37,914 nucleotides of DNA from a virus: the IMG/VR virus record IMGVR_UViG_3300025896_000074, positions 1 to 37,914 of that record; one strand, written 5' to 3'. The notes beneath the pieces were generated by a model, which saw only the letters and a list, made by a program, of their open reading frames with translations, made no database searches and was not told where the DNA came from. This document shows positions 18,489 through 34,872 of this stretch, piece by piece (the first letter of the stretch is position 1; each line of letters begins with the position of its first letter). Made by a program: the position numbers and the translations under genes.

Positions 18489-18523
18489 GCGGCGGGTGTC
18501 CCGCGCGCGGCGCGAATGTCAAA
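18489..18523 (-). promoter_or_regulatory. conserved 35-bp leader, copy A
   Basis: Reads TTTGACATTCGCGCC, 8 variable bases, GACACCCGCCGC, then ATG. The same 35-bp layout occurs before the genes at 27784 and 34837. The TGA within TTTGACA is also the stop codon of the upstream glycosyltransferase. TTGACA resembles a -35 hexamer, but no -10 follows. Confidence 0.7.
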
Positions 18524-19601
18524 CCGGGATCCACTCTTGAGCACGCGCGCGGAGGTGGCCTTGGTAGGGCCCCTCGGGTTCGTGGTAGGCGATGTGGTGG
18601 GTGATTTTTCCGGCGGGGTCTTTTTTGACGTGATCGCAGGCGACGTGGGGAACGCAGGCGATGCGGAGACCTGCGGGCCGCCAACGGCGGAAGCAGAGAA
18701 AGAGGTCTTGAGTGCCGCCGCCATCGTATCCGGCAAAGTCCGCGAGGGCGAGGGCGCGGCGATCAAGGAGGGTGCAGCCGAGTCCGCACCAATCGGAGGG
18801 GACAATGGCACCTTCACCGATGCCGGGGTAGGCGTAGTCGAGCCAGCCGCGGGGATGCCAGCCGTGTTTTGCGATGACTTCCCAAATGTTCCCGTCGGGC
18901 GGGGAGGCTTTCACGCACTTCATGAGGCGCTGGTGCCTGCGTTGTTCTTTTTCCAGTGAAGAGGCTTTCTCCTTTTGCCATTTCGCCAAACTGATCGGCT
19001 GCTCGGAGATTGTGGAAGGCGGCGGCAAATTCACTTTGCCGAGTCTTTTTTCACATTCATTCAGGCATAATTTGAGGCGTGGCTTGAGTTTCCTCTCGGT
19101 GGGAAGGAAGTCTTCCGCGATGGGGTTTTGATAGGTGCCACGGCCGCCGAGGAATAGGCCGTTTTGATAGGTTCCGGCGGCGATGGCGTAGAGAGGAGAG
19201 CCGTCTGCGTGTGGCATGGAGAGGGTCCACTGGAGGACGCGCAGGGCATTTGCGGGGACGATGTTATCCGACTCGACGGACCAGAGAAAATCCGGGCGGA
19301 TCTTGACGCGGGCGGTGTGCAAGGCGGCACCTTGAAGGGCGGCAATGCGGAGCTGCGCGGATTTCTGATAGTCCTTGGCGTCGTCTTCCATGCCTGCCAG
19401 GCGGATGACGGTGATGGCCCAGCCCTCGGGGAGTTCGGCGCGGAGGGTTTCCTCGGCTTGTTTGGATTCGTCCGAGTGATCGGTGGCGAAGATGAAATGG
19501 CCGTTGGTGATGTGGGCGGCGGCGGTGGCAATGGAGCGCACGCACTGCGGCCAGGCGTGCAGGTAGGACTTGGTGGCGGCGGTAACGACGGCGAGTTTCA
19601 C
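18519..19601 (-). CDS. glycosyltransferase-like protein
   Basis: A 360-residue protein starting at GTG (GTGA overlap with the upstream stop). The start KLAVVTAATKSYLHAWPQC and the acidic motif in FLWSVESDNIVP (about 106-115) fit a GT-A type fold. Later GGTQDLFLCFRRW is like the closing motif of family 2 glycosyltransferases. It lies directly downstream of a Ser/Thr-rich fibre-like gene, so that protein is a candidate acceptor. The upstream in-frame extension to 19826 is a shadow of that gene. Confidence 0.7.
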   Translation of the reverse strand: MKLAVVTAATKSYLHAWPQCVRSIATAAAHITNGHFIFATDHSDESKQAEETLRAELPEGWAITVIRLAGMEDDAKDYQKSAQLRIAALQGAALHTARVKIRPDFLWSVESDNIVPANALRVLQWTLSMPHADGSPLYAIAAGTYQNGLFLGGRGTYQNPIAEDFLPTERKLKPRLKLCLNECEKRLGKVNLPPPSTISEQPISLAKWQKEKASSLEKEQRRHQRLMKCVKASPPDGNIWEVIAKHGWHPRGWLDYAYPGIGEGAIVPSDWCGLGCTLLDRRALALADFAGYDGGGTQDLFLCFRRWRPAGLRIACVPHVACDHVKKDPAGKITHHIAYHEPEGPYQGHLRARAQEWIPV

Positions 19602-22069
19602 TGATGTTTCAAATGTTGCTGTGAGGAAAAGGCGGAGGCGTTTCCGGCGGTGTCCCAACGGGCTGTTAGAACTGGTTCCATGGAGAGGACGATGGCGTGG
19701 GAGTGGGGGACGCTGAGGGAGAGTGAGGCATCGGTGCCGCTGGTGGAGTGGGAGAGGGCGGCGGTGGATTGGCCGGCGCTGTATTCCGTCCATGAGGCGG
19801 CTCCCTGTCGGAGGAGGAGTTTCCATGATTCGCTGATGGCGTTATCTCCGATGGCGTAGCCGCCGGAGTTCGCGCCGCCGGGCATTTCGGAGCGGGCGGC
19901 GGAGTTGAAGGTGATGGGATCGGAGGACCAGTAGCTGCCGGTGATCTGGGAAGCCATGGCGATGGTGTGGGTGGCTGCGCGGGTGGTGGTCGTGGAGGTG
20001 GTGCCGGTGCTGGCGGTGGTGGAAGTGGTGCTGGACCAGGTGGCGGCGACGGAGATTTCCGAGGTCATCACGGAGGGGGTGGAGATGAGGGAGGTGGAGA
20101 CGGCGTTTCCAGTGCCGCCGAGCTGGATGGCGGAGGGGACGGGGTAGAAGGTGAGGCCTTGGCAGGCTAAGGCGGTGGCGGTGAGCTGGAGGGTTTCCTC
20201 GGTAAAGGTGGATCCGGAGGCGAGGCCTTGGGTGGTGGTGAGGTAGGCATCCAGCGCGGAAGCGGTGAAGCTTCCGCCGAAGCCTGCGAGTCCGTAGGGG
20301 TGGACTTGGAAGCGGGCTTCGTTGAGCGCGGGGATGTTGTCGTCAGTAGGTCGAGCATCGACAGAGATTCTGCCGCGTGCTTCGGTCCATGCGGTTAGGC
20401 TGGCTCCACCGTTGGTGGTGCCGAGGTGGGAGGTTCCGGCGGAAATAAACTGATAGGTCTGAGAGGGAACGGAAGCGTGCAAGTCCGCGTGCCAAGTGGG
20501 GAGTGTGTAGGTGCTGGAAACGGATGAAGCGCGGGTGGTGTTGGTTGGAACCAGACCTAGCAATGAGCTGCTTGTATTGGTTCCGGTGCCCCATGTGCTG
20601 TAGCTTGAAATCAAGATTTCGTCGGCGGTAGTTGCGCGACTTGATCGGGTAACGGTAGTCGAAGCGGATGACCATGGGGCTATGCGGGTTCCCGTTTCGG
20701 TAACGTCGTTACCCCACTCCGCGCTGGTGGTGGTGCTAGTCCAGCGCGTTCCGGAAGTGTAGCCTGTGAGTTGCGCGCTGTGGGTGTAGATGGTGGAAGA
20801 ACTTGTCGCCTTTGGTGCGTTGGTGTCCGTCGTGGTTGCTACCGTCCACGTGCTTTGAGATGAAGAAACGTCTCCGAGGCTGTGACTTGCGGACCATGTA
20901 GCGGTATAGTCGGAATCCGCATAGGAGTTCCCGTTGTAAGAGGTTGCGGTTCCGGTGGCGGTGTAAGTTTCGGCGGCGGCGGCGGTGTCCGTGGTGCTGG
21001 TTCGCGTGGCTGTGCGCGTAGCTGTCGCGGTGCTTGTCGTGATGACGGTGACGGGGGCGGATGAAGTCAGGAAAACGGAACGTTCCGAGAGGGTGACGGT
21101 TTGTGAGGCGTTTGACGAATAAAGGGCGGAAAAAAGCGCGGCCGTGGTTTGGGTTGATGCGATGGCGGACGTGTTGAACGTCCAAAGGTTGGGGGATAGG
21201 TTGTAACCGTCCGCGCCAAGATTCGCGTTCATGATGCAGACCGTATCTTGTAGCAGATTGTTAAACTGCCAGTTTGTCCGGGCGTGGGTGGTGGCTGTCA
21301 GGTTGATGCTGTCATCCTCCGTCCAAGTTACGTCAGCGGTCGCGGTGGTAATCGTTGTGGGTCGATTGGTTAGGCTTGTATATCCAGTTCCCCACGTGCT
21401 GTAGGACGATGAAACGCTTCCTGTCGTGCTTGTGGCCGTGGTGGTGTAGCCGCTGCTGCTACTTGTGGTGGTGAAGGCGTTAAAATGGCCATCGCTGGCG
21501 GTGGTGGTGACGGTGGAAAGATCAATGGCGACGGTCTGCGTCGTGTAGGTGGTGCTGGTTCCGCTGGCGGTGTAGGCGGTGCTGGTGGAGCTGGTGGAGT
21601 AGGATGCAGCCGTGGCGGACGAAGTGGAACTGGAGTGGGTATCGGACTCGGTGGAGCTGGATCCGGTGGTGAGGGAGGTGTTTGAGGTGGCGGCGAAGGA
21701 GGAGTCTCCGGCGGCGACGCTGCGGGCGATGAGGCGGGCCTCGGTGTAGCTGTAGGTGTCCGAGAAATTGATGGCGCTGCCGGGGTTGTGCGCGGATTGG
21801 TGGACGTTTCGAACGGTGAGGCTGGAAGCGGTGGAAACAGTGGAGACGGTGCGGCCGATCTCTGAGACGTAAACGAGGCTGGTGGTGCCTGCGTTTTGAA
21901 CGAGGGCGGTGAGGCCAGCGGTGGAGCCCGCCGTGTTCGATGAGGAGGCGCCGGCGGTGGTGCTGGCGCTGGTGCGCAGATCGTAAACTCCGGTGGAAGA
22001 GGTGCCGATGTGGTAGGCGGTGGAGGAAACCGTCCACGCGGTGGAGGGGCGCTGGGTGTAGGTTTTCAT
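19598..22069 (-). CDS. large Ser/Thr-rich tail or fibre protein
   Basis: An 823-residue product. About residues 1-530 are extremely rich in Thr, Ser and Ala (runs such as STTAGASSSNTAGSTAG), with repeated SYSTWGTG units at several places. The last 300 or so residues are more ordinary globular sequence (WTEARGRISVDARPTDDNIPALNEARFQVHPYG...). It lies among tail genes and immediately upstream of a glycosyltransferase, which suggests an O-glycosylated fibre or surface protein. The start at 22069 overlaps the upstream stop; the longer upstream reading is a shadow. Confidence 0.65.
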   Translation of the reverse strand: MKTYTQRPSTAWTVSSTAYHIGTSSTGVYDLRTSASTTAGASSSNTAGSTAGLTALVQNAGTTSLVYVSEIGRTVSTVSTASSLTVRNVHQSAHNPGSAINFSDTYSYTEARLIARSVAAGDSSFAATSNTSLTTGSSSTESDTHSSSTSSATAASYSTSSTSTAYTASGTSTTYTTQTVAIDLSTVTTTASDGHFNAFTTTSSSSGYTTTATSTTGSVSSSYSTWGTGYTSLTNRPTTITTATADVTWTEDDSINLTATTHARTNWQFNNLLQDTVCIMNANLGADGYNLSPNLWTFNTSAIASTQTTAALFSALYSSNASQTVTLSERSVFLTSSAPVTVITTSTATATRTATRTSTTDTAAAAETYTATGTATSYNGNSYADSDYTATWSASHSLGDVSSSQSTWTVATTTDTNAPKATSSSTIYTHSAQLTGYTSGTRWTSTTTSAEWGNDVTETGTRIAPWSSASTTVTRSSRATTADEILISSYSTWGTGTNTSSSLLGLVPTNTTRASSVSSTYTLPTWHADLHASVPSQTYQFISAGTSHLGTTNGGASLTAWTEARGRISVDARPTDDNIPALNEARFQVHPYGLAGFGGSFTASALDAYLTTTQGLASGSTFTEETLQLTATALACQGLTFYPVPSAIQLGGTGNAVSTSLISTPSVMTSEISVAATWSSTTSTTASTGTTSTTTTRAATHTIAMASQITGSYWSSDPITFNSAARSEMPGGANSGGYAIGDNAISESWKLLLRQGAASWTEYSAGQSTAALSHSTSGTDASLSLSVPHSHAIVLSMEPVLTARWDTAGNASAFSSQQHLKHQ

Positions 22070-22644
22070 AGCGCCTCCACGTTCCATCGCCACCAGCGGG
22101 AGAAGGGCTCGGCACCGGTGGCGGGGGCTGATTTGGACTCGCGGAAGACCTCGGCGGCGACGGCTTCGAGGTTGGTGGTGATGATCATCTTGGCGGCGGT
22201 GCGGCCGATGGCTCCGAGGACGATCTTGAAGGAAACGGGCGGGGTGTCTTTGGCAATGCTGTCCTCGGTGGGTGGGGAGGACTCGACGGCGAGGGTGAGT
22301 GCGGTGACTTTTCCGCTGGCGGTGGTGACGGCAAGGGTGACGAAGTGGAAATCGTCCCCAGCCATGGAGAGGGTGAATGCGTCGTTCCAGTTGGTGGAGA
22401 CGTTCTGATTGAGGGTGCCGAGGTGGAAGCGGCATTTGTAAACGGTGGCCTCGCCGGTGCCTTCGGTGAAGAAGGTGGGCTGCCAGGGAACGAGCGCGGC
22501 GGCGGCGGTGGCGCTGGATCCGCTGCGGCGGATGGCTTTGCGGCGGGCGAGGCGGGCGATGGATTCGCGCAGGGAGTTTGCCCAGAAGGCGGAGACGGGC
22601 TGCCCTGGAACGACGCGCGGCGGGAGGTTGATGGGCAGGGACAT
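22066..22644 (-). CDS. tail protein, unknown
   Basis: A 192-residue product with a basic N-terminal helix (RESIARLARRKAIRR) and a beta-rich remainder (FHFVTLAVTTASGKVTALTLAVESS). Not recognised. It lies between the 278-residue tail protein and the Ser/Thr-rich protein, starts 7 bp after the former and overlaps the latter. Probably part of the tail tip. Confidence 0.55.
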   Translation of the reverse strand: MSLPINLPPRVVPGQPVSAFWANSLRESIARLARRKAIRRSGSSATAAAALVPWQPTFFTEGTGEATVYKCRFHLGTLNQNVSTNWNDAFTLSMAGDDFHFVTLAVTTASGKVTALTLAVESSPPTEDSIAKDTPPVSFKIVLGAIGRTAAKMIITTNLEAVAAEVFRESKSAPATGAEPFSRWWRWNVEAL

Positions 22645-22651
22645 GGCGGGA

Positions 22652-23488
22652 TCAGGCTTCCGGGCCGAAGATTTGGGTGGGGTAGTCTTCCTCAGAGCCG
22701 GAGGTCCACGTTTTGGAGTAGGAGTTTGCGCCGTCTCCCGAAACGGCGATGGATTCGGTGGCTCCGGAGTAGATCCAGACGTCTCCGGGCAGGGCGGCAG
22801 GGCTGCCGGGTGGATCATCGATCATGCCGAAGTCCGCGAAGTCCGCGGAGCGCAAGGCTCCTTTGCCGGTGGCGGTCTTGGTCCAGTCCGAGGTGGCTTT
22901 GGGATAGGTGAGGTGGCCTTTGGTGACGATGTAGTCCCACCAGAAGCGGAAGTTTTCGTCGGTGAGGGTCTCGATGAGCGCGCCGGAGCTCGCGTTGACG
23001 ATCTCAAATGAGCTGGTGGTGGAGTTGGCGAGGTTTTTGATGTAGATGCCATCGGCTCCGCCCTTGATGGTGTCCCGGGTGTTTTCGGTGACTTGCGCGA
23101 GGAAGCGCGGGTTGGTGAAGATGGGGGCGTCCGCAAGGGCGTTGTTGCGGCTGTAAACGACGCTGCCCTCGAAGGTGTAGTCGGTGCCGGAGACGTCCAC
23201 GCCTTTGAACTCCACGGAAACGACGGAGTATGCTCCGGGTTCATCCCGGGAGGTGTAGCTATCGACGCGGAGGTAGCCGAGGCCTGCGGGGACTTGTGGG
23301 TAGAGCTGGCCGATGAGGGTGCCCTTGGCGAGCTTGGCCTTGATGACTGGGGTATCGATGGCTCCCTTGCGGCAGGTGAAGTCCATGGAGCCGGTGGTCA
23401 TGCCTTCCGGGGTGACGACGTAGGTGAACCGCGGCCCGGGATTGAGGGTGGCTGCGGCAAGTCCGTAGATTTGCGAGGAGGTGCTCAT
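22652..23488 (-). CDS. tail protein, distal-tail candidate
   Basis: A 278-residue protein that follows the tape measure directly. The sequence is beta-rich (FTYVVTPEGMTTGSMDFTCRKG, YLRVDSYTSRDEPGAYSVVSVEFKG) and ends with an acidic segment. Position after the tape measure suits a distal tail or tail-tip protein (compare lambda M/L), but no domain is recognised with confidence. Confidence 0.6.
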   Translation of the reverse strand: MSTSSQIYGLAAATLNPGPRFTYVVTPEGMTTGSMDFTCRKGAIDTPVIKAKLAKGTLIGQLYPQVPAGLGYLRVDSYTSRDEPGAYSVVSVEFKGVDVSGTDYTFEGSVVYSRNNALADAPIFTNPRFLAQVTENTRDTIKGGADGIYIKNLANSTTSSFEIVNASSGALIETLTDENFRFWWDYIVTKGHLTYPKATSDWTKTATGKGALRSADFADFGMIDDPPGSPAALPGDVWIYSGATESIAVSGDGANSYSKTWTSGSEEDYPTQIFGPEA

Positions 23489-23491
23489 GGT

Positions 23492-24625
23492 TCAGGCGAA
23501 TCTGGCGGTTCCTACCTCGCGGCGGATGTCGCTGAGGAGGGTGTTGGTTTTCTGGAGGGCGGGATCGGACTCGGCTTTGGCGGTCTTGCCGCCGCTGCCG
23601 AAGCCCATGAGGGAGGGCATGAGGGATTTGACGTCGATTTTGAGGGAGTCCTTGATGCCTTCTCCGAAGGATTTTCCGAGGTTGCGGAAGATGTCCCCGA
23701 AGGATTTGCCGAGGTCTTGGGAGAGCAGGACTTCGAGATTCCGGCCGAGCATGGACATGAGTTCTTGGATCTTCGGGCGGAATTTCTCGGCATCGAGGGA
23801 ATCGAAAATGCGATTGATGCCGCCGCCGCCGCCGAAGCGGCTGACTTCGTCGAGCGCCATGGTGCCGAGCGAGCGCTTGAGGGTTTGCCAACGGCCAAGG
23901 GCGTCTCCCATGTCGTCGATGCGGGCGGCGAGGCCTCCGTCCATGGCGCTGGCGAGGTCTCCGACGTTGTTGCGGGCTTGGCCCATGCTGCCGTTGAAGT
24001 CTTTGAAGAAACGGATGAGCTTGTAGCCCATGCGCGCGCCGAAGAGATCGGCCATGGAGGACTCGAGCCCGGCGATTTTGTCGGAGGTCTCGACGATCTG
24101 GGTGCCGACTTTGGGGCCGAAGAGGTAGGTGAACTCGATGGGGGTGCGGGTGGTTTTGGTGAGCTCGGCGATGCGCTGGCCGATGGTGTAGAATGCCTGA
24201 TCGATGTTCATGCCGGCGATTTCCTGCGCATTGAGTCCGAGCTTACGCAGGGCGTCCGCGGCGGGTCCGCCGTTTTTCGCTGCTTCCGAAAGGTTTGCGG
24301 CGAGGGTGGAAATCATGCGGGAGGTGTCCGCGCCCTCGGCTCCGGAGAGGCGCAGGGCTTCCTGCAGTTCGATGAGGCGCTTCACGGAAACGCCCGTCTG
24401 GGTGCTCATGTCGTTGAGGCCTCCCGCCCAGTCCATGGTTTCCCCGAGGTTTTCAGGAACCACGGACAAAACGCGGCCGATCCAGTCAGTCATGCGTGCT
24501 CCGACTTCTCGGCCCATACCGATGCCGACTTGGCGGCCGACTCGTCCAACAATGTTAGAGATGTTCCCGAGTCCGCGGGAAACGGAGGTGCCGTCAAATC
24601 CGAGTTTGAAGGTGGTGCCGATCAT
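23492..24625 (-). CDS. tape measure protein, short
   Basis: A 377-residue protein placed right after the G/GT pair. It is largely helical, with Gly-rich N-terminal helices (GLGNISNIVGRVGRQVGIGMG) and tape-measure-like middle motifs (GVSVKRLIELQEALRLSG, LNAQEIAGMNIDQAFYTIGQRIAEL), and ends with the protein-protein helix TNTLLSDIRREV. Siphovirus tape measures are usually 700-1500 residues. At about 1.5 angstroms per residue this one predicts a tail of only about 55-60 nm. The position makes the call good despite the size. Confidence 0.82.
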   Translation of the reverse strand: MIGTTFKLGFDGTSVSRGLGNISNIVGRVGRQVGIGMGREVGARMTDWIGRVLSVVPENLGETMDWAGGLNDMSTQTGVSVKRLIELQEALRLSGAEGADTSRMISTLAANLSEAAKNGGPAADALRKLGLNAQEIAGMNIDQAFYTIGQRIAELTKTTRTPIEFTYLFGPKVGTQIVETSDKIAGLESSMADLFGARMGYKLIRFFKDFNGSMGQARNNVGDLASAMDGGLAARIDDMGDALGRWQTLKRSLGTMALDEVSRFGGGGGINRIFDSLDAEKFRPKIQELMSMLGRNLEVLLSQDLGKSFGDIFRNLGKSFGEGIKDSLKIDVKSLMPSLMGFGSGGKTAKAESDPALQKTNTLLSDIRREVGTARFA

Positions 24626-24628
24626 GGT

Positions 24629-24886
24629 TCAGGTGTATTCGGGTTCGAGGGTGGCCCATTCCACGGCAAGCGGGATGTCCGGGGTTTCGAATGGTGCGGT
24701 GAGTTCTGGCGCGGGCGCGAAGTAAACGGCCCATGCGAAGGATGCTCCGGCGCGGACGCCCTCGGCGTGGAGGAGTTGGAGGACGCGGCCGAGGTCGGTG
24801 TGGCGGAGGAGTTTTTCGGGGGCGATTCCATGGCGGAGGGCGAAGAGATCGATGAGGGCTAGGAGTCCTGGGCTGGCGGGTGAGAC
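24629..24886 (-). CDS. GT-like extension reached by -1 frameshift
   Basis: The second part of the tail-assembly chaperone fusion. Reading continues here in the -1 frame from the slippery site at 24886-24892 and gives about 85 more residues (SPASPGLLALIDLFALRHG...ATLEPEYT), for a total fusion of about 210 residues. It has no good start of its own and ends 3 bp before the tape measure start, as in lambda G-T. Confidence 0.82.
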   Translation of the reverse strand, partial: VSPASPGLLALIDLFALRHGIAPEKLLRHTDLGRVLQLLHAEGVRAGASFAWAVYFAPAPELTAPFETPDIPLAVEWATLEPEYT

Positions 24887-25260
24887 TTTCCCCGGCCCTC
24901 GCTTTCCACGGCGGCGGCCATGGCGGCCTCGATGCGGGCGAGGAGTTGGGGTTTGAGTTCCTCGATCCCGGCTTCGTGGCTCAGGGCAAAGGTGAGAACT
25001 TCCGCGGCGCGTTCCTGTGGGGTGAACTGGCGGAACTTTTCGATTTGGTCGAAGTCGTCCGCGGCGAGGTGCCACATGATGAGGATGCCTTCCACCATGC
25101 CGGAATACTCGGTTTGGTTTTCGGGGCCGGGAGCGGCGAAGAATGCGTTGCCACGCTCGCGGATGATTTCGTTGGCGATGGCGGAGAAGATGATTTCCCG
25201 GCCGGCGAGCATCATGGGCGGGCCAATGTAGGACTTGGAGAGGAGGCAGGTGCGTTTCAT
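24859..25260 (-). CDS. tail assembly chaperone (gpG-like)
   Basis: A 133-residue acidic, helical protein upstream of the tape measure, the place of lambda gpG. Helices such as MVEGILIMWHLAADDFDQIEKFRQF and AEVLTFALSHEAGIEELKPQLL fit the class. Close to its 3' end the slippery heptamer GGGAAAG lets a share of ribosomes shift to -1 and make the G-GT fusion. Both products chaperone tape-measure and tube assembly and are usually absent from finished virions. Confidence 0.8.
   Translation of the reverse strand: MKRTCLLSKSYIGPPMMLAGREIIFSAIANEIIRERGNAFFAAPGPENQTEYSGMVEGILIMWHLAADDFDQIEKFRQFTPQERAAEVLTFALSHEAGIEELKPQLLARIEAAMAAAVESEGRGKSHPPAQDS
24886..24892 (-). promoter_or_regulatory. programmed -1 frameshift site GGGAAAG
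   Basis: G-GGA-AAG in the frame of the upstream gene is a perfect X-XXY-YYZ slippery heptamer and is identical to the lambda G/GT site. It lies 9 codons before the G stop codon, and the -1 frame is open for 85 residues. Placement, heptamer and open frame agree. Confidence 0.9.
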
Positions 25261-25266
25261 GGTTTC

Positions 25267-25851
25267 TTAGCCTTGGAGGCGGGAGAGAAGTTCGGTGCGC
25301 TGCCAGACGGGCAGGCGGGTGGAGATGAGGGCGTGGCGGGTCTGGTCGCCCTCGCCAGTGGTTTGGTAGATGCAGCGCTTGGCGTTGCGGTGGAGCTGGA
25401 AGCAGATTTCCCGGTTCCAGACGTAGGCGAGCACGAAGGCGGCTTCGCCATGCGGCAGGGCTTTGACGAACTGCGGGACGTCCGCGAGTTTTCGCAGGCC
25501 TGGCATGGTGTGGCCGCGCTCGGCGAGGTAGGTGACGGCGAAGCCAAGCAGATCCTCGGAACCTTGGAGTCCGCGCGGGCGGGAGCGGATGAAACGGCAG
25601 ACTTGGGCGAAGCCGTGGTCCGCCTCAAGGTTATCGTGGCCGTTCCAGAAAAGCATGAGGCGCTCGCAGTCCTCGGTGCCGTCCTCGGAGCATGCGCCGA
25701 AGCGGTAGGAGCCATAGGCGGGGCCGGTGCCGCCCTCGATGAGGCGGACGGGCTCCCGGGAATCGAGCGGGATGCCTTGGGACATGAGGGCCGCCACGAG
25801 ATTGATGTCTCCGGAGTGGTGGCCGCGCGCGCCGTTGAGTTGGGGTGTCAT
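25267..25851 (-). CDS. hypothetical protein between major tail and chaperone genes
   Basis: A 194-residue product (MTPQLNGARGHHSGDINLVAALMSQGIPL...) with a QTTGEGDQTRHALISTRLPVWQRTELL C-terminus. Not recognised. It is an extra gene relative to the lambda order V-G. It is 6 bp from the chaperone gene and 23 bp from the major tail gene, so it is co-transcribed with them. A structural or assembly role is inferred from position only. Confidence 0.55.
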   Translation of the reverse strand: MTPQLNGARGHHSGDINLVAALMSQGIPLDSREPVRLIEGGTGPAYGSYRFGACSEDGTEDCERLMLFWNGHDNLEADHGFAQVCRFIRSRPRGLQGSEDLLGFAVTYLAERGHTMPGLRKLADVPQFVKALPHGEAAFVLAYVWNREICFQLHRNAKRCIYQTTGEGDQTRHALISTRLPVWQRTELLSRLQG

Positions 25852-25874
25852 GGTTTCTCAGGTGTGGCACCGCG

Positions 25875-26303
25875 TCAGGTGGCGGTGTAAGTGGTGCCGA
25901 GGGCGACGTAGGGCAGGTAAAGGCCGGTGAAACCGCCGCCTTCGAAGCCGGTTTGTTGCGGCGAAATGGTGTTGCCGGTGATGACGATGCCCGCACCGCT
26001 GGCAGGGGTGACGCCGAGGCCTTCGCTGTTGCGCGTGCGGGTGTTCTTGGTGGTGTTCGCAAGGGTGAGCACGTCGCCGATATCGCCCACGAGGCCGGTG
26101 CCCTTGGCGGCGAGCACGCCGTCTCCGGAGACTTCCTTGCGGGGATTGTAAACGGCGAGGGCGATGGAGTTTCCGATGTGATCCGGAAGCTCGGCGGTTT
26201 CTGAGGATCCGGTCCAGGTGATGGAGCCGATGATGGTGCCGGTGGCGGGGGTATCGTCTGCAAGACCGAACTGCGCGGCGGAATAAACGGTGGCGGAGGA
26301 CAT
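25875..26303 (-). CDS. probable major tail (tube) protein
   Basis: A 142-residue, beta-rich, Gly/Thr-rich protein following the tail-terminator-like gene, the position of lambda V. Strand patterns (GTIIGSITWTGSSETAELP, SIALAVYNPRKEVSG, GAGIVITGNTISPQ) suit a tube protein, but it is short for the family (usual 140-250). ATG 26303 chosen; the longer upstream reading is out-of-frame noise. Confidence 0.55.
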   Translation of the reverse strand: MSSATVYSAAQFGLADDTPATGTIIGSITWTGSSETAELPDHIGNSIALAVYNPRKEVSGDGVLAAKGTGLVGDIGDVLTLANTTKNTRTRNSEGLGVTPASGAGIVITGNTISPQQTGFEGGGFTGLYLPYVALGTTYTAT

Positions 26304-26316
26304 GGCGGAAAGGGTG

Positions 26317-26754
26317 TTAGTGTGCGGGAGCGGAAACGATGTTGAGGACCCAGCTCGAAATGCGGCGTCCCTCGGACACGTCGGTCGTCGGCGCTGCCAA
26401 GCGAATGTCAAAAACGTTCCATCCATTCCGCCCGTCCATCCAATCGATCGCGCGGCGGTCTCCGAGGATGTCGTAGAGCTGGCGGCGGTAGTCGCGTTCG
26501 GTTTCTGGCGCGGTGCCGTCGTTTTCCGCATCGGCGGGCACGGTGTGGAGCTCGCAGGTGATTTCCACGGTGGAGACGCCGGGGAGCATCACGTCGTCCT
26601 GCTTGTAGGGCTCGGAGCCGGTTTCACGGATGCCGAGGAATGGCGGGTCGAGTTCGTCCGTCTCGCCGAGGGTGACGAGGGTGAGGACTTGGAGATCGGG
26701 CTTGGATGGCAGGTTGTGCTGGATCCAATCGCGCAGGCTTTCGTTGAGGGTCAT
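26317..26754 (-). CDS. tail terminator-like protein (gpU position)
   Basis: A 145-residue product. MTLNESLRDWIQHNLPSKP, VEITCELHT and DWMDGRNGWNVFDIRLAAP are reminiscent of minor tail protein U / DUF-type terminators, with an alpha-beta-alpha layout. It overlaps the Z-like gene by 4 bp and precedes the major tail gene, as in lambda Z-U-V. A copy of TTTGACATTCGC, the first 12 bases of the leader motif, occurs inside this gene at about 26402-26413 as FDIR codons. Confidence 0.55.
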   Translation of the reverse strand: MTLNESLRDWIQHNLPSKPDLQVLTLVTLGETDELDPPFLGIRETGSEPYKQDDVMLPGVSTVEITCELHTVPADAENDGTAPETERDYRRQLYDILGDRRAIDWMDGRNGWNVFDIRLAAPTTDVSEGRRISSWVLNIVSAPAH

Positions 26755-27473: not shown

Positions 27474-27784
27474 GAGCGGGTGGGTTCGATCAAGGTGAGG
27501 GTGGTGAAGGTGGCACCGGCACTCACGGCATCCACACGCCACGACGCTCCGCGGGCGGTCGCGGTTTTCTTGACGATGGCGGTGCTGCCAATCGCGGAGG
27601 TTTTGCAAGTGGCGGTGAGGGTCTTGCGCGCCTCGAATCCGCCGTTTTCTGAAAACTCCGGGGCGTTACTGGCCTCCGCGAGCACGCAGGAAAGCGAAAG
27701 CGCGCCAATGGTGACGGTTTCCTCGCCGATCATGGCGGCGGCCGCGGTGTGCGCGGCGGTGGCGAATGCGGAAACGAGTGACAT
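27470..27784 (-). CDS. head-tail joining protein (FII-like position)
   Basis: A 104-residue protein. A helical N-terminus (FATAAHTAAAAMIGEETVTIG) is followed by a beta-sandwich-like rest (LTATCKTSAIG...WRVDAVSAGATFTTLTLIEP), the general shape of lambda FII-type neck proteins. It starts exactly 35 bp after the conserved leader at 27785-27819, just downstream of a glycosyltransferase gene. Confidence 0.55.
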   Translation of the reverse strand: MSLVSAFATAAHTAAAAMIGEETVTIGALSLSCVLAEASNAPEFSENGGFEARKTLTATCKTSAIGSTAIVKKTATARGASWRVDAVSAGATFTTLTLIEPTRS

Positions 27785-27819
27785 GCCCGCGGTGTCCCAC
27801 GCGCGGCGCGAATGTCAAA
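27785..27819 (-). promoter_or_regulatory. conserved 35-bp leader, copy B
   Basis: TTTGACATTCGCGCC, 8 bases, GACACCGCGGGC, then ATG. Identical layout to the copies at 18489 and 34838. The TGA of TTTGACA is the stop codon of the glycosyltransferase upstream, as in copy A. Confidence 0.7.
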
Positions 27820-28396
27820 GGCGGGCGGGCTCCGGTGCCGCGGTGGTGGCGGCGTCGTGGCGGTAGGTGTGGAGGATGGCGTCGATGTGCCAGCCGCTGG
27901 CGATGCGGCGGCGGGCTTGCTGGCACCAGATGAAGTCCTCGCCGTAGTTGGTTTCTCCAAACTGGCAGGTGGCCACGCGCTCGCGTTTCCAGGCGCAGAC
28001 GTGCCAGGGGGCGCGCTTGGTCACTTCTCCGGGGCGGAAGGGGTGATCGTGGTGATTGAGTCCGAACTCGATAATCCCTTCCTGTCCATTGTAGATGCAC
28101 TGCTGGCGGAAGGTGATGACGTCGGCACCGGTGCGGATGCCTTCTAACAACTTTGCGACGTAGTCCGGAGAGATGGCGTCATCGTCATCCACGAATGCAA
28201 AATACTCGCCGCGGGAGATGTCCACCAGCGCCTGGCGTTTCGCTCCGATGGTCCGCTGGCGGTTGTCCGAGAAAATGAGGTGTTCCACCTGCCCGAGGAA
28301 TCCGCCCTCGGTGATCTGGCGGGCGGTCTCGGCGGCAAGCGTTTCCGCAGCAGCGGTGCGCTCGGGAATGGATGGGGTGAGGATGGAAAGTTTCAT
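27815..28396 (-). CDS. family 2 glycosyltransferase
   Basis: A 193-residue GT-A enzyme. LSILTPSIPER is the nucleotide-binding first strand and FAFVDDDDAISPDYV (about 67-80) holds the metal-binding DDDD motif. YNGQEGI...NYGEDFIWCQQARR (ED near 154) looks like the catalytic-base region. It is short but covers the core fold. It transfers a sugar from an activated donor; the acceptor is unknown. It lies beside the large GT-methyltransferase gene, so both may act on the same virion glycan. Confidence 0.85.
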   Translation of the reverse strand: MKLSILTPSIPERTAAAETLAAETARQITEGGFLGQVEHLIFSDNRQRTIGAKRQALVDISRGEYFAFVDDDDAISPDYVAKLLEGIRTGADVITFRQQCIYNGQEGIIEFGLNHHDHPFRPGEVTKRAPWHVCAWKRERVATCQFGETNYGEDFIWCQQARRRIASGWHIDAILHTYRHDAATTAAPEPARL

Positions 28397-28399
28397 GGC

Positions 28400-28681
28400 T
28401 TAGAATGGGATGTCGTCTTCTTCTTGGTAGTCACCTTCGGGAGGCGGATCTTTGGGTTTCGGACGGGGATCGGGCGCTTGCCGCGGCGCTTGTTTTTCCG
28501 CGGGATAGAGCGAGAGCCAGCCGGACCAGCCGGGGCCGGGAATGGCATCGAGCTTGATGGCCTGGCGGCCTTCGTCATCGGTGAAACACTTGCCGCAGGT
28601 GAGGTAGCGCTTCTTGGTTTCTCCAGCGCTGTTCTTGTATTCGCCAATGGTGGCTACGACGTCGTGGGTGAGTTTTGCCAT
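28400..28681 (-). CDS. SSB-like small protein with acidic C-terminal tip
   Basis: A 93-residue protein. The first 60 residues (KLTHDVVATIGEYKNSAGETKKRYLTCGKCF...AIKLDAIP) look like a small OB-fold strand set. A Pro/Lys-rich linker leads to the ending EEDDIPF, the same type of acidic tip by which SSB proteins bind partner enzymes. Probably a ssDNA-binding protein, although it sits between two glycosyltransferase genes in the late operon rather than with the replication genes. A non-SSB OB-fold protein is the alternative. Confidence 0.6.
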   Translation of the reverse strand: MAKLTHDVVATIGEYKNSAGETKKRYLTCGKCFTDDEGRQAIKLDAIPGPGWSGWLSLYPAEKQAPRQAPDPRPKPKDPPPEGDYQEEDDIPF

Positions 28682-28694
28682 GGTGGTGGTGCGG

Positions 28695-30875
28695 TTATTT
28701 ATGATGGATCCAGCAACGGCCGATGCGCTGGATTTGGAGCTTGTGGGTGGCGAGCGCGGCGATCACGCCCGGGGCGTCCGCATCGTGCCCGGCGAGGATG
28801 CCGCCGGGCTTGACCTTGGGCAGCCATGCGGCGATGTCCGCGGTGACGGAGGCTTCGTCGTGGGCGGCATCGAGGAAGATGATGTCATGCTCTCCTTTGA
28901 ACTTTTCCGCGGCTTCGATGGAAGGCATGACGACGGTTTCCACATCAAAAGCCACGATGGCGGATTTCAGGTTTTTCTTGAATTCCTGATAGACGTCCGC
29001 CTTGCCGGTTTCGGCATCTCCTTGGAAAGTGTCCACCGCATAAAGCGTGCAGGATTTGCCGATGTCCTGGCAGCGCTGGGCGAGGTAGATGATGCTTTTC
29101 CCTTTCCAGCTTCCCACCTCGATGAAAGTTCCATCGGATGGAATTTCCTTGGCGAAGTAGTCATAGACATCCCGGAAATCGAACCATCCGTGAACGTCCG
29201 AGCTGGTCATCACTCCGGCGCGGAGGCGCTTGATGATTCCTTCGCCGGTCTGATAGTGATATCCCTGATTGCTGCGAGCGTAGGTTTCATCGATCTCCGC
29301 CTTGCCGAATGCAGGGTGGATGTGCTCGAAGGTGATGCGGTCCCGGGCGTCGATGACCACGCCGTCCAAGAATGCCTGCTCGGAAAACCAGTTATCCGAG
29401 TGCATGGAAAAGAACTCGGGGTGAAACAGGTATCCCTGCTGCTGATATCTCGCCCGGGTGAGGATGGCCATGCAGAGCAGATCGTCTTTGCGGTGGCCGT
29501 CGTTGACGGCAAGCACGGCCTCGCGGGTGGTGTCTCCAATGGCATCGAGGATCAGCTTGTCCCAGTGCATGGGAGGTTCCCAATCGTCGGACATTTGCAC
29601 GATGACGCTGCCCTTGGACTTGGAGGCTGCGGCATTCCAAGCGGCGACGGGTCCGCCGTTGCCGGGGAGCACGACGTGGTTGTGGACGGTGAGAAACGCG
29701 GCCATCGGATCATCCGCATCGATCGCGAAGATATGCTCGATGGCGTCCGGGTCCGCGGCTTTTTCGAGCCAGTTCAAACGGGCGGTGACGGCTTGCTTGG
29801 TCCTCCCGCGGGTGGCGTGGACGAGGGAAATTTTCGCACCGTGGCGGATGAAGTGGTTGGTTTCCACCGCATCCGCTTCCTCGAAGTATCCGGAGGCGCG
29901 CAGGGCCATGCCGTGGAGTTGTTCGCCGAGCCAGCCGTAATACTTGCCGCGGCGGTTCCAGTGGAACTCGGCCGGCGGCTGGAGGGCGCGCATGCTGTTG
30001 GTGTAGGAAAGCGCGTCTGCAGGGCGGCCCATGCCCATCATGCACAGCGCCATTTCGCCATACCCCTCGCGGCGCGTGGGATCGGTGGCCAGAGCTTGAA
30101 GCATGAACTGCGCGCGCTGGGATGGCTCCGGAGAAAGCTGGCCGGCGGCGATGAACAACTCGAAGCGCTCCGCCTTGCCGATGTCTGCGGATGGATCCGC
30201 CAAAATGGAAACGACCTCGGCGGCGGCGTCCTCGGTGCGGCCCACGGCGCGCAGGGATTGGAACAGGTGAAAGCGGTGGGATCCGCTGCGTTTTTCCGGA
30301 GGGATGCTTTCGAGGATGCGGAGGTTTCGCTCGTCGTTGGCGGCACGCGATCCGGTGGGGGCGTGGAGAATGTGACCGTGATGGATTTCCGCCAGTTTGG
30401 GTTCTTCGTGGAACTTGAGAAACTCATGGATCGGCGAAGTCCAGACGGCGCTGCCCTTGCGGATGATGCGCTCGCGGTAAACTTTCAGGCCATCTTCCGG
30501 CACCACGTAGGGCATGGAGATGCCCACGCAATCCTCCGGCAAGCGAGCCATGGCGGCGCGGATGGCGGCAATGGATTCCGCGGAAATGGTATCGTCCAGA
30601 TCCGCCCACATGATGAGATCATGGGAGGCGAGTGAGAACGCCATGTTTCGCGCGGCAGCGAAGTCGTCCACATGCGGCCAATCGTGGCTGTTCGAGTAGA
30701 TGGCGGTGCGGCAGCCGCATTGCTTGGCGATGGCCAGCGTCTGGTCCGGTGGTTGGTTTCCGCAGGCGCGGACGATGATGATTTCATCGGCGAGCGGTTT
30801 GAAGTTTTCCAGAAAGCGGCCGATGTATTGCTCGGCGTTGCCGGTGATGACGCAGAGACTGAGAAGTGGTGTCAT
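28695..30875 (-). CDS. fusion: glycosyltransferase - helical repeat - glycosyltransferase - SAM methyltransferase
   Basis: The 726-residue protein has four parts. First is a GT2 domain (1-205; LLSLCVITGNAEQYIGRF, metal motif DLDD at 92-95). Next is a helical TPR-like region (about 205-335). A second GT-A-like domain follows (about 348-520; KISLVHATRGR, IDADDP, MSDDW). Last is a class I methyltransferase (about 580-715; FIEVGSWKGKS, YAVDTFQGD, DIIFLDAAHDEASV) of the Methyltransf_24 type. It could build and then O-methylate a short glycan. It is placed right after the capsid gene and its hairpins. The start at 30875 is chosen; the upstream reading runs through the hairpins. Confidence 0.8.
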   Translation of the reverse strand: MTPLLSLCVITGNAEQYIGRFLENFKPLADEIIIVRACGNQPPDQTLAIAKQCGCRTAIYSNSHDWPHVDDFAAARNMAFSLASHDLIMWADLDDTISAESIAAIRAAMARLPEDCVGISMPYVVPEDGLKVYRERIIRKGSAVWTSPIHEFLKFHEEPKLAEIHHGHILHAPTGSRAANDERNLRILESIPPEKRSGSHRFHLFQSLRAVGRTEDAAAEVVSILADPSADIGKAERFELFIAAGQLSPEPSQRAQFMLQALATDPTRREGYGEMALCMMGMGRPADALSYTNSMRALQPPAEFHWNRRGKYYGWLGEQLHGMALRASGYFEEADAVETNHFIRHGAKISLVHATRGRTKQAVTARLNWLEKAADPDAIEHIFAIDADDPMAAFLTVHNHVVLPGNGGPVAAWNAAASKSKGSVIVQMSDDWEPPMHWDKLILDAIGDTTREAVLAVNDGHRKDDLLCMAILTRARYQQQGYLFHPEFFSMHSDNWFSEQAFLDGVVIDARDRITFEHIHPAFGKAEIDETYARSNQGYHYQTGEGIIKRLRAGVMTSSDVHGWFDFRDVYDYFAKEIPSDGTFIEVGSWKGKSIIYLAQRCQDIGKSCTLYAVDTFQGDAETGKADVYQEFKKNLKSAIVAFDVETVVMPSIEAAEKFKGEHDIIFLDAAHDEASVTADIAAWLPKVKPGGILAGHDADAPGVIAALATHKLQIQRIGRCWIHHK

Positions 30876-30883
30876 GGTGTCGT

Positions 30884-30924
30884 GTGAAAAAGGAAGGGCC
30901 GCAGGTGGGAGAAACCTGCGGCCC
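30884..30924 (-). terminator. terminator after the major capsid gene
   Basis: Perfect 10-bp stem GGGCCGCAGG / CCTGCGGCCC (30896-30905, 30915-30924) with a 9-nt loop. On the minus strand it is followed by TTCCTTTTTC. It lies just before the GT fusion gene, so it may cap capsid transcripts with partial read-through. Confidence 0.72.
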
Positions 30925-30955
30925 CGGATTGGAAGGCCCTCCAAAAGTGAACGCC

Positions 30956-30984
30956 GCCCGTCGTCTTCTCCCGAGACGGCGGGC
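30956..30984 (-). other. second stem-loop after the capsid gene
   Basis: Stem GCCCGTCGTC / GACGGCGGGC (one G-U) with a 9-nt loop, 20 bp after the capsid stop and 31 bp before the terminator. No T-run follows; it may protect the 3' end of the capsid mRNA or act together with the terminator. Confidence 0.6.
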
Positions 30985-31004
30985 AGCGGGTCATGATGCC
31001 GAAA

Positions 31005-31901
31005 TCAGGTGGTCGGCGTGGTGAAGACCTTGAGCGCGGTGGTGACAGCCTTGCTGTAGCCGTAGAGCATGTGAAGGTTGATGAACCACTTGGCCTGAGC
31101 GCGGCTCCAGTGGCGGGTGTAGAGCATCGACAGGCCGGTTTCGTCATCGATGAAGGTTTCCATCGCTTCGAATTCTCCGTCCGGAAGCGCCTGGTTGATC
31201 TGGCGGAACGCGACGGCGATGGCTTCCTTGCCGCAGACGAATCCGTTGAGGGAAATCGAATTGGTGGGGAAGGCGGACGAGGCATAGAGATCCATGCCGA
31301 GCAGTCGGCCGAGATTGCCTTCCTTGATGGCCATGGCATCGCCACGGTTCAGGGCGAGGGTGATCTTGTCATCGCCGAGGAAGGCGGATTCGATCACGCG
31401 GTTGGAAACGAAGGACATGTCTCCATCCACACCGGCATCGAGCGCGGCTTGGCGGGCGGCGATGAGTTGGGTGCGCGCGTAGTTCGAGGACGCGGTGGTG
31501 ATGACCGCGGCTCCGAAGTTCACGGTGGTGATGACGCTCATGATGTCCTGAAGGACCATCTTGGCCATCGACTTCGCCATTTGGCCGGAGAACGCATCCA
31601 CACGGCCGGCGGCCGAGGACTCGAGGAGTTGTTGGTGGGTGAGGTCCACGGGAGTGATCTTGCGCGAGGTAAGGCTCACGGTGATCGCCGAGATACTGCC
31701 TCCGGTTTGCTCCATCACGTCAGTGGCCTGCGTGAAGGTGGTGGTGGTGACATTGCCGAACAGCGGCACGGTGACGGAATCTCCGGGGCCTTTCAGCTCG
31801 TCCGAGATGTCCGTGGAAAACGCGCTGATGGGGATCAGCAGCGAGTTGAGTTGTTGGAAGATCTTTTGTCCGAAAATCTTGTCGTTGTAAACGGTGGCCA
31901 T
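31005..31901 (-). CDS. major capsid protein, HK97 fold
   Basis: A 298-residue capsid protein. The N-terminal SLLIPISAFSTDISDELKGPGDSVTVPLFGN, the ATDVMEQTGGSISAITVSL region and the long helix AGRVDAFSGQMAKSMAKMVLQDIM suit the spine helix and E-loop region of an HK97-type subunit. LGMDLYASSAFPTN and TFIDDETGLSMLYTRHWS are typical later strands. It follows the protease-scaffold gene as expected and is followed by two RNA hairpins, a common way to favour high capsid mRNA. No separate decoration protein (gpD) gene is seen. Confidence 0.82.
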   Translation of the reverse strand: MATVYNDKIFGQKIFQQLNSLLIPISAFSTDISDELKGPGDSVTVPLFGNVTTTTFTQATDVMEQTGGSISAITVSLTSRKITPVDLTHQQLLESSAAGRVDAFSGQMAKSMAKMVLQDIMSVITTVNFGAAVITTASSNYARTQLIAARQAALDAGVDGDMSFVSNRVIESAFLGDDKITLALNRGDAMAIKEGNLGRLLGMDLYASSAFPTNSISLNGFVCGKEAIAVAFRQINQALPDGEFEAMETFIDDETGLSMLYTRHWSRAQAKWFINLHMLYGYSKAVTTALKVFTTPTT

Positions 31902-31935
31902 GGTGGTGGGTGGTTAGGTGATGGGTGTGAGGGAT

Positions 31936-32439
31936 TCAGGCTTTTGAGGAGCGCTGGGCGGCGGCGATTTCCTTCTCGTATTTCTTGAAATAGGCGGAGG
32001 CTTCCGCGCCGGAGAGGGAGTTGTAAACTTCCAGATGGTTCACGACCTGCGTTTCCACTTCCTCCAGCGGCTTGTCCTGTCCGATGCTGGCGAGGATCTC
32101 GATGGCTTGCTTGCCGGAGGATTGCTTGGCTGCCTCGATGGCGGCGTCCTTGGCGGTGAGGTCGGCTTGCGCGGTGGCGAGGGACTCGCTGGCGGTTTGC
32201 AGTTCCGCGGTGAGGGTGGTGATGCTTTCATCGCGCGCGGCGATGGTGGCGATGTTCTCGGCGATGGTCTGGTCCTTGGCGGTGAGGTCGGTGACGTAAC
32301 CGGAAATCAGGGCATCCTTGGCGGCGATATCGGCGCGGAGAGAATCGATCTCAGCGGCGGCGGCTTCGATCTGGGCGGATTCGTCTTTTCCGGGGAACAG
32401 GCGGGCGAGCAGGTTCATGGACGGTGGTTTCAGGTCCAT
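31936..32439 (-). CDS. internal in-frame scaffold protein (Nu3-like)
   Basis: An internal ATG (codon 212, MDLKPP) starts the coiled-coil half, giving a 167-residue scaffold. It is preceded directly by TTGACATTCGCGCC, the first part of the leader seen before three other genes. A second ATG (32418, MNLLARLF) is 7 codons on. Lambda makes Nu3 from such an internal start. The motif also encodes VDIRA in the longer protein, so chance remains possible. Confidence 0.5.
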   Translation of the reverse strand: MDLKPPSMNLLARLFPGKDESAQIEAAAAEIDSLRADIAAKDALISGYVTDLTAKDQTIAENIATIAARDESITTLTAELQTASESLATAQADLTAKDAAIEAAKQSSGKQAIEILASIGQDKPLEEVETQVVNHLEVYNSLSGAEASAYFKKYEKEIAAAQRSSKA

Positions 32440-33072
32440 GGCGCGAATGTCAACATGGCCGGAGTCGGAATTTTTCGCGGCTTCGGTTTTGCCATCTTTG
32501 ACGATGGCGTGGATGAAGCCGTTTTCCTTGGCTTGCTCGGCGGTCATCCATGTTTCCTCAAACATGAGGTTGCGGATGGCAGCGGCATCGCCACCGGTGC
32601 GCTCGGCGTAGATGCCGGCGATTTCTGCGGAAATGCCTTCGAGCAGGTTGGCGGTTTTGCGCATGGTGCGGGCGTCTCCGTATGCAATGGATGAGGCCTC
32701 ATGGATCATCACGCGGCTGCCCTTGGTCATGCGGCGCTGGTCTCCCGCCATGAGGATGACGCTGCCCATTGAGGCGGCGATGCCGTTCACGGTGGTGGTG
32801 ATGGCGACTCCGCGGCCGGACATCTCGCGCAGGGCGTTGTAGATGCGCTGGCCTTCGAAGACTCCGCCGCCGGGAGAGTTGATTTCCACCTCGACGGCTT
32901 CGAGGGCATTGGATGTGGAGCAAACGACGTCACCGATCTTCATGCCGGAGGCGACGGCAGCGGGGCCGTAGAGGCGGTCGAGTTCTTCGATGAGTTTGTC
33001 CGCGCTTTCCTTGTTCACGCCATCGTTGAGGCGGAGTTTTCCGGTGCGGTTTTCAATCTGGATCAGGTTCAT
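31936..33072 (-). CDS. ClpP-like head maturation protease fused to scaffold
   Basis: The 378-residue protein has a ClpP/S49-like domain (about 1-195): INSPGGGVFEG, nucleophile S101 in GIAASMGS, H124 in VMIHEASS and the TWMTAEQAKENGFI motif near 175-187, where Glu takes the third catalytic place. From about 212 on it is a long coiled coil (SLRADIAAKDALISGYVTDL...), the scaffold part, with a charged C-terminal end (QRSSKA). Lambda C/Nu3 has the same arrangement. The protease cuts scaffold and capsid delta regions during prohead maturation. The gene overlaps the portal by 20 bp. Confidence 0.88.
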   Translation of the reverse strand: MNLIQIENRTGKLRLNDGVNKESADKLIEELDRLYGPAAVASGMKIGDVVCSTSNALEAVEVEINSPGGGVFEGQRIYNALREMSGRGVAITTTVNGIAASMGSVILMAGDQRRMTKGSRVMIHEASSIAYGDARTMRKTANLLEGISAEIAGIYAERTGGDAAAIRNLMFEETWMTAEQAKENGFIHAIVKDGKTEAAKNSDSGHVDIRAMDLKPPSMNLLARLFPGKDESAQIEAAAAEIDSLRADIAAKDALISGYVTDLTAKDQTIAENIATIAARDESITTLTAELQTASESLATAQADLTAKDAAIEAAKQSSGKQAIEILASIGQDKPLEEVETQVVNHLEVYNSLSGAEASAYFKKYEKEIAAAQRSSKA

Positions 33073-34558
33073 TGGAAGGTGGGGCTTGGGGTGGTGCTGG
33101 ATCCGCCTGGTTGGCGGCGCTCATTTCGTTAGCGGTGAGCATGAACATTTCGCGGTCTTCGATGACGATCTGGCGGCCGTGTTTGGCGTTGAGTTCTTCG
33201 GCCACGGTGAGTGCTTTGAGCTTGCGGAGGTAAACGGAGCGGGCGCGCTGGTCCTCGAATTCTTCCTCGGTGAGGCCGCGGGCTTCGAGCACTTCGCCGA
33301 GGTTGCGGGAACCGGTGATGAGTTCATCGAGTTCCATTTTGGACTCCCGTCCATCGTCCACGGAGAGGCGGGGCGGGCGGGAGAAGTCCCACGCGGTGGG
33401 ATTGGCGAGCATGGGCACGCGGCCGGCGCTGGCGAGCACGCCATACGCCCATGAGAAGGCGCGGCGGGCGGCATACCAAAGCTGGCCTTGGCGCTTGGTG
33501 ACGAAGCGGCGGCATTTGAGGATTTCCCCGCGCTCGGCGGTGCCTTGGCCGCTGGATTTCCAGACGCTGTAGGACCAGACGGAGATGACGGCGTCCCGCA
33601 CGATGCGGTCTTGGAAGCTGTCCCAGATGGGGCCGGGGTTGTCGTGGCGCATTTGCTCGACGCGCTGGTTTCCCTCGGAGGGGAGATACATGACGCCTCC
33701 GGGGAAGGCTTTGGTGGAAAAGCCGAGGGGGGCGTCCGTTTCGTTGTCGAGCACGGTGCCGGGGTCGTCCAGATCCGGCGCGCCGTGTTCGTTGAAAACG
33801 GTGAGGTGCAGGCGGGAGATGATTTGCTGGCGGATCCGCTCGTCCTCGGTGGAGAGCAGGGACATTTTCAGCGATTCCAGGGCGTGGGTGAACGCGGGAA
33901 GACCGCGTCCTTGCTCGCAGTGGGTGGGATCGAAGTGGTGGATGACATTGGCGGCCGGGATGTCCTCGAACGCTTCCTCGCCGTCCTGTCCGACGTTGAA
34001 ACGATAGGCTGCGGGGCGGCCGCCGCGGTGGTAGATGACGCCATCGATGATGCGGTAGCCGGTGAATTTTCCCTCTTCGACTCGGGTGCCGTTGTTCCGA
34101 TCGTAGCAGCGGTGGCCGGGGACAAGCTGAACGCGCGGGAAGCCATCGTCCCCCTTGATGAGCAGCCAGAAACAATCGCCGTCCCGATCGATGGCGACGG
34201 AGGAGAGTTCGAGCATTTTCCACCAATCGAAGATGCCGCCGCGGGTGTCGCACTGCGGGAACCAGAGGTCCCGCATGGTTTTGGCAACGGCTTTGCCGCG
34301 GTCCGCATCCGGGCCGAGGTAGCTGGGAAGCCAAGCCTCGCCGACGGAGAAGTCCGCTTTCTGGAGCACGCAGGCCTTGGGCACGCCCATGTTCATGAAC
34401 AGGCGGTTCGAGAGGCTGGCGAGGGTGCGGCGGTCGTTGGCGGGGATGAGCCGGTCGATGTCGTCATTGCGCACGGTGAACTGCGGCCCGCGGCGGTGGC
34501 TGCGGTCTGCGGCGTGGGCGAAGGTGAAGGGCTGCCCGAATTCGTTGAGGATCGCCAT
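33053..34558 (-). CDS. portal protein (lambda type)
   Basis: A 501-residue protein. The order terminase-gpW-portal-protease is that of lambda. KKDSPLF-type starts are absent, but the lambda portal family pattern is present: TLASLSNRLFMNM near 46-58, the DRDGDCFWLLIKG strand (about 124-136), RLHLTVFNEHG and SEGNQRVEQMRHDNPGPIWDSFQDRIVRDAVISVWSYSVW-type wing/stem segments. The C-terminus is Pro-rich and disordered (PAPPQAPPSNEPDPD). The portal forms the 12-subunit DNA entry ring and docks TerL. Confidence 0.88.
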   Translation of the reverse strand: MAILNEFGQPFTFAHAADRSHRRGPQFTVRNDDIDRLIPANDRRTLASLSNRLFMNMGVPKACVLQKADFSVGEAWLPSYLGPDADRGKAVAKTMRDLWFPQCDTRGGIFDWWKMLELSSVAIDRDGDCFWLLIKGDDGFPRVQLVPGHRCYDRNNGTRVEEGKFTGYRIIDGVIYHRGGRPAAYRFNVGQDGEEAFEDIPAANVIHHFDPTHCEQGRGLPAFTHALESLKMSLLSTEDERIRQQIISRLHLTVFNEHGAPDLDDPGTVLDNETDAPLGFSTKAFPGGVMYLPSEGNQRVEQMRHDNPGPIWDSFQDRIVRDAVISVWSYSVWKSSGQGTAERGEILKCRRFVTKRQGQLWYAARRAFSWAYGVLASAGRVPMLANPTAWDFSRPPRLSVDDGRESKMELDELITGSRNLGEVLEARGLTEEEFEDQRARSVYLRKLKALTVAEELNAKHGRQIVIEDREMFMLTANEMSAANQADPAPPQAPPSNEPDPD

Positions 34559-34561
34559 GGC

Positions 34562-34837
34562 TCAGAAGGTGGAGATTTGAGTGGAGGAAATGGCGGTGCC
34601 CGCATCGAAACAACGGACGACCCACCGGAGCAGGGCAAGCCTCTGGCCGGTGGTGATGGTGGGCTGTGCTGTGAAGCTCTGCCCGTTGACCGTGGCGCTC
34701 GTCACGGTGGCCACGGATGCCGGATCGGTGGTAATGGCCAGCGCCAGCGTCTTGAGTTCCGCGCGGACCTTCGCCACGGCGGCGGCGTCGTCCTTGAGGG
34801 CGGAATAGATGGCGTTTCCCGTGGCGGCGATGTTCAC
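34562..34837 (-). CDS. gpW-like head completion protein
   Basis: A 91-residue product starting at GTG. The helical N-terminus (IYSALKDDAAAVAKVRAELKTLALA) and the TVNGQSFTAQPTITTGQRLALLRWVVRCF region suit a small head-completion protein, and it lies between terminase and portal as lambda W does. It is longer than lambda W (68). It begins 35 bp after the conserved leader at 34838-34872, with the start codon GTG. Confidence 0.5.
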   Translation of the reverse strand: MNIAATGNAIYSALKDDAAAVAKVRAELKTLALAITTDPASVATVTSATVNGQSFTAQPTITTGQRLALLRWVVRCFDAGTAISSTQISTF

Positions 34838-34872
34838 GCGGCGGGTGTCGCAACCCGGGCGCGAATGTCAAA
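34838..34872 (-). promoter_or_regulatory. conserved 35-bp leader, copy C
   Basis: TTTGACATTCGCGCC, 8 bases, GACACCCGCCGC, then GTG. Same length and spacing as copies A and B. It lies 5 bp after the stop of a small membrane-protein gene rather than overlapping the stop. Confidence 0.7.

Follow-up and report, generated by a model that had tools for sequence, protein, structure and literature searches.

A repeated two-box element before the virion genes of an uncultured phage and its relatives, read as a probable family of late promoters

Five copies of a repeat among the late genes

The window, by which we mean the whole stretch of DNA analysed (37,914 nt, IMGVR_UViG_3300025896_000074), codes its late genes on the minus strand. 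Names with profile support could be given to the terL, portal, protease, capsid and tape measure genes, and the names W slot, tail-tube slot and scaffold were taken from synteny with lambda. Both ends of the window (1-8 and 37907-37914) read GTGTGTCG in the minus-strand direction and lie next to CTAAGGAATCTCTT, a block kept before terS in relatives, which makes it probable that the contig represents an entire genome, cut at the cos site or close to it. The phage is probably temperate, as a tyrosine integrase is encoded at 3285-4253. Two related genes resembling C5-cytosine methyltransferases (4617-5582 and 8502-9287) share about 350 nt of DNA at 77-80% identity, and each is overlapped by a long ORF read in a different frame. 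A fibre-like protein with a collagen-like GPQGPAGETGATG stretch is encoded at 15668-17281. Searches of the window for tRNA genes and for Rfam families gave no match.

Five copies of the repeat are present in the window, all on the late-gene (minus) strand. Site A (34838-34872) carries TTTGACATTCGC at 34872-34861, in the place of a -35 box, and GACACC at 34849-34844 as a -10-like box, and adjoins the GTG at 34837 of a gene lying between terL and portal, in the lambda W slot. Site C (27785-27819) has the same two elements at 27819-27808 and 27796-27791 before the ATG at 27784 of the first tail-module gene, and site E (18489-18523) has them at 18523-18512 and 18500-18495 before the ATG at 18488 of a late tail or fibre gene. 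At both C and E the TGA within TTTGACA doubles as the stop codon of the gene upstream, which is a glycosyltransferase gene at site C; the gene upstream of E (18519-19826), called a glycosyltransferase in the initial annotation, has no Pfam match. The 35-base copies at A, C and E are exact and each ends at the start codon, just as first described, and it is also correct that these three stand directly behind accessory genes.

The remaining two copies lie inside genes. Site B (32419-32454) is located within the ClpP-type protease gene, with GTTGACATTCGC at 32454-32443, GAAACC at 32431-32426 as the -10-like box and the ATG of the nested scaffold at 32418; the scaffold then begins MNLLARLF, which aligns with MSLLAKLF and MNLLKMIF of relatives. 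A copy near the scaffold, at 32440-32454, had been noticed before, as a partial one abutting a start at 32439, but it is a full copy and the ATG at 32418 is 21 nt on. Site D (26384-26412) has TTTGACATTCGC at 26412-26401 and GACGAC at 26389-26384. The gene that contains it, towards the C-terminal end, precedes the probable tail-tube gene, and the ATG of the latter, near 26303, is about 110 nt on. The earlier count of three copies and a fragment was thus right as to the three exact copies and short in total, the full set being five including 26412-26401.

A 29-nt pattern searched with up to 3 mismatches had four matches in the window against 0.00 expected from 100 shuffles, the fourth match, at 32426-32454, being that of site B. 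When the sites were scored with a profile built from relatives only, the five had scores of 24-26, the next best place in the window 12.4 and the best of 20 shuffles 17.5; nothing beyond the five sites had a similar score on either strand of the window.

Behind the major capsid gene, on the same strand, there is a hairpin with a 14-bp stem and a T-rich tail (30953-30987), and a second terminator-like hairpin of 12 pairs (30895-30925) lies between the capsid gene and the next glycosyltransferase gene. The latter (28695-30944, 749 aa) is fused to a methyltransferase domain and is found directly behind the capsid terminator in most relatives. Of 20 non-redundant relatives, 18 have an intrinsic terminator behind the major capsid gene, while 11 other late genes combined gave a single case and shuffled sequences none. 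Scaffold and capsid would therefore form one unit read from site B, and the later genes would need new promoters.

Anatomy and conservation of the motif

The consensus, built from 53 non-redundant sites of types A, B, C and E, is TTTGAC[A/T]TTCGC, 11 nt, nA[A/T]Anc and the start codon. The positions of TTTGAC[A/T]TTCGC are near 2 bits and the middle 11 bases are poorly conserved. An A is present at offset +24 in 45 of the 53 sites, but sites of one slot share descent, and such counts do not represent independent events; we take the independent evidence to be the same two-box layout recurring across five slots. TTGAC[A/T] is near-invariant and agrees with a sigma-70-type -35 box, and the -10-like box follows TTGACA at about 16-17 nt. 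In this second box, mostly GAnnnC, the most conserved base is the A at +24, which corresponds to the -11 A of promoters, followed by a weak A/T and A, and the last T is mostly C. A scan with the sigma-70 consensus does not call the five sites, because the -10 box is too degenerate and is without the T of TATAAT. At A, B, C and E the start codon follows the 15-mer by 20 or 21 nt and the -10-like box lies 6-7 nt before it, as in leaderless promoters, which is not the case at D.

An alignment of the sites with a 21-nt gap fits, taken alone, an A-rich box anchored either to the -35 box or to the start codon. Site D separates the two, since in relatives it is placed 104-140 nt from the next gene start and still keeps A at +24 in 13 of 14, with different codons at that position (T, N, I, M, F); the A-rich box is therefore anchored to the -35 box. 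The codons TTT GAC ATT CGC are also chosen beyond background, both at D (p 6e-5, 3.5e-4, 9e-7 and 0.017) and at B (p 1e-4, 1e-4, 1e-7 and 0.003), which indicates that the nucleotide sequence itself is under selection, although the boxes at B and D lie in coding sequence and conservation there may partly reflect the protein.

Searches of IMG/VR with terL and portal gave about 50 related uncultured contigs, and the motif is found in them at the same slots A-E with 0-3 mismatches, more in distant members. This search of related phages at the same junctions had been set beforehand as the refuting test, and the motif was present, also in phages with merely 30-44% identity in terL or portal. In three of the distant members (L188, L205 and L216) the -10 A is displaced by one, and the group comprising L216 and L182 has its D copy 21 nt before the gene in the tail-tube slot. 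All 34 diverse phages compared at the E gene carry TTTGACA with at most one mismatch in the region upstream of it, in most cases 35 nt before the start codon, against 1 of 34 after shuffling; the TTCGC extension at this gene is confined to part of the 34. A scan of IMG/VR with the bare 15-mer returned mostly unrelated contigs, which served as controls, and nearly all of them are without the context of start codon and A at +24. The 29-nt pattern had no match in a scan of the genome collection, where terL likewise revealed no prophage relative, and a literature search for TTTGACATTCGC gave, among the matches listed, unrelated (cardiac and stem-cell) papers only.

The relatives also clarify the relation of the motif to the accessory genes. 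Many relatives are without the HNH gene, and in them the motif adjoins terL; in seven (G003-G005, G007, G009, G012 and G013) the site A motif follows terL directly with nothing inserted. G007 keeps copy C though both glycosyltransferases are absent. The accessory genes are accordingly insertions upstream of a conserved element, that is, upstream of a promoter which stays with its downstream gene. Between their first two tail genes G007 and G008 have an extra stretch with an additional copy behind it, as expected were an insert there followed by its own promoter. The reading of the repeat as a boundary at inserted accessory genes, proposed in the initial annotation, or as a target for their insertion, is hardly credible. 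In its favour are the three window copies directly behind accessory genes and the extra copy in G007 and G008, but it is refuted by the relatives that keep the motif without inserts, with B (in the protease gene) and D inside core genes and no second copy at the opposite edge of the inserts.

An analogous set of sites in phage P8625

The closest isolated phage by portal is the Verrucomicrobia phage P8625 (NC_029047), at 28% identity, and this best isolated match weakly suggests a host among the Verrucomicrobia. In P8625 the form TTGACA...GTATCC-N7-GGATAC occurs six times in front of late genes, against 0.26 in shuffles. In four of the six sites the ATG comes 30 nt after TTGACA ends, and the arrangement is TTGACA-N17-(-10), with TATTGG (three sites) or TATCTG (one site) in the -10 place. 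As in the window, promoter-like sites stand before late genes in comparable slots and a hairpin lies behind the capsid gene; unlike in the window, the inverted repeat GTATCC/GGATAC replaces the TTCGC extension and there are about 2 nt more before the start codon. The genome paper of P8625 makes no mention of promoters (PMC4642752), and by comparison of the sequences P8625 appears to hold an analogous, unreported set of sites. Common to both are the -35 box, the position of the -10 box and a predicted start at the start codon or close by, and the element between the boxes depends on lineage, which is as expected of a lineage-specific reader. P8625 gp13 is annotated from TTG 9620, and the promoter-like site together with a start reading MTQFTDF suggests ATG 9656.

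Late promoters and their possible reader

A sequence shared before several late genes, on their coding strand and kept in relatives, is what a dispersed family of late promoters would present. In our judgement the repeat most probably constitutes five late promoters before particle-building genes, with the RNA predicted to begin at the start codon or one base ahead of it. The -35 box TTTGAC[A/T]TTCGC would then be TTGACA with a lineage-specific extension, and transcripts starting at or one base before the start codon would be leaderless mRNAs. Site A would fire a unit of the W-slot gene and portal, B the scaffold and capsid unit ending at the terminator, C the tail module, D the tail-tube slot, with a leader of roughly 80 nt in the window, and E the late tail or fibre genes. 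We infer from the sequence that RNA polymerase uses these sites, as well as the polymerase concerned, the late timing, the start sites and their leaderless character.

The strongest competitor, which we nevertheless regard as unlikely, is that the block from -35 to -24 is the site of a phage activator, in the manner of Mu C or P2 Ogr, so that TTGACA would belong to an activator box and would not be read by sigma. Several features would suit an activator: at 12 bp the conserved block exceeds the usual length of a -35 box, TTCGC within it is specific to the lineage, the -10 box is a weak one, and upstream of terS there is a small conserved ORF. However, TTTGACA persists in different lineages though the remaining sequence varies, and P8625 has TTGACA with a wholly different spacer element, which points to a sigma contact at TTGACA. 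The activator reading is moreover still that of a promoter, and differs only in who reads the box.

The initial annotation had offered a late promoter or translation leader, of which the promoter half is well supported and the translation half does not agree with the placing of site D. A translation leader or enhancer, acting in the mRNA from 20-35 nt ahead of the start codon to attract ribosomes in a host that uses few Shine-Dalgarno sites, would explain the near-constant spacing at A, B, C and E and would suit the near-absence of Shine-Dalgarno sites. We consider it improbable. Site D retains both boxes although the next start is 104-140 nt away, a -35 TTGACA combined with a conserved -11 A is how a promoter is laid out, and the gap to the start codon is 28 and 7 nt rather than 2-3 nt at two of the six P8625 sites. 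Neighbouring late genes are equally without Shine-Dalgarno sites, yet have no motif; as genes with and without the motif in the window have hardly any such sites, the comparison between the two is not discriminating. Many starts of minus-strand genes read ACC-ATG or GCC-ATG. For the promoter family, leaderless or Shine-Dalgarno-free translation would fit the near-absence of Shine-Dalgarno sites.

In lambda, one late promoter, pR', with antitermination by Q serves the whole late operon. The window resembles lambda in late gene order and in the scaffold nested in the protease gene, and differs from it by five late promoters, as we read them, and a terminator inside the operon; the five sites and the internal terminator rule out a lambda-type single late promoter with Q. 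In the Mu C and P2 Ogr systems, host RNA polymerase and a small phage activator serve several late promoters with a common box. The window is similar in having several putative late promoters with a common box, but the box is a different one, the starts are predicted at the start codon and no homologous activator was found. Bacterial sigma-70-type promoters that yield leaderless mRNAs, those of Mycobacterium for example (PMC3898074, PMC4633059), share with the window sites the -35/-10 layout and a -10 box 6-7 nt before the start codon, while the window sites have a long conserved -35 box with TTCGC, a degenerate -10 box and repetition among late phage genes. The late promoters of phiKZ, as cited in PMC5312081, have TATG with the start site at the G. 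From that citation, phiKZ would share with the window many dispersed late promoters and a start site within the start-codon context, and would differ in being a jumbo phage with a phage non-virion RNA polymerase and no TTGACA box. A phiKZ-type late promoter was rejected, there being no TATG element in the 53-site consensus. A distributed late-promoter family with predicted leaderless transcripts would be a variation on known late-promoter families.

A basic ORF of 61 aa (63-248, minus strand; MERKRGTYARRG..., with a KRGxYxRR start) lies just upstream of terS, and is the only ORF of the non-structural region common to nearly all motif-positive relatives with sequence upstream of terS. Its position and conservation make it a candidate regulator. 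Pfam and PHROGs searches with this and other early proteins found no sigma factor, late regulator or known activator family, no homologue of the ORF was detectable in P8625, and the predicted structure is a single helix with a mean pLDDT of 62, which is not usable. It is speculative to suppose that a phage factor, for instance the product of this ORF, recognises TTCGC. We regard as possible, though doubtful, a wider scenario in which a widespread group of uncultured siphophages, probably verrucomicrobial, has replaced lambda-type antitermination with leaderless late promoters, a small phage protein (perhaps the 61-aa ORF) reading the lineage-specific extension of the -35 box and thereby allowing host RNA polymerase to start at the start codon though a proper -10 box is absent.

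With the motif, late transcription can be approached from the sequence in a large phage group. Read as a promoter, it predicts exact RNA 5' ends and would correct gene starts, namely those of the nested scaffold in the window and of gp13 in P8625; as the host of P8625 is cultured, the prediction is directly testable. Overall, the sites suggest that, where hosts make little use of Shine-Dalgarno sites, the virion genes of their phages may be expressed from leaderless mRNAs.
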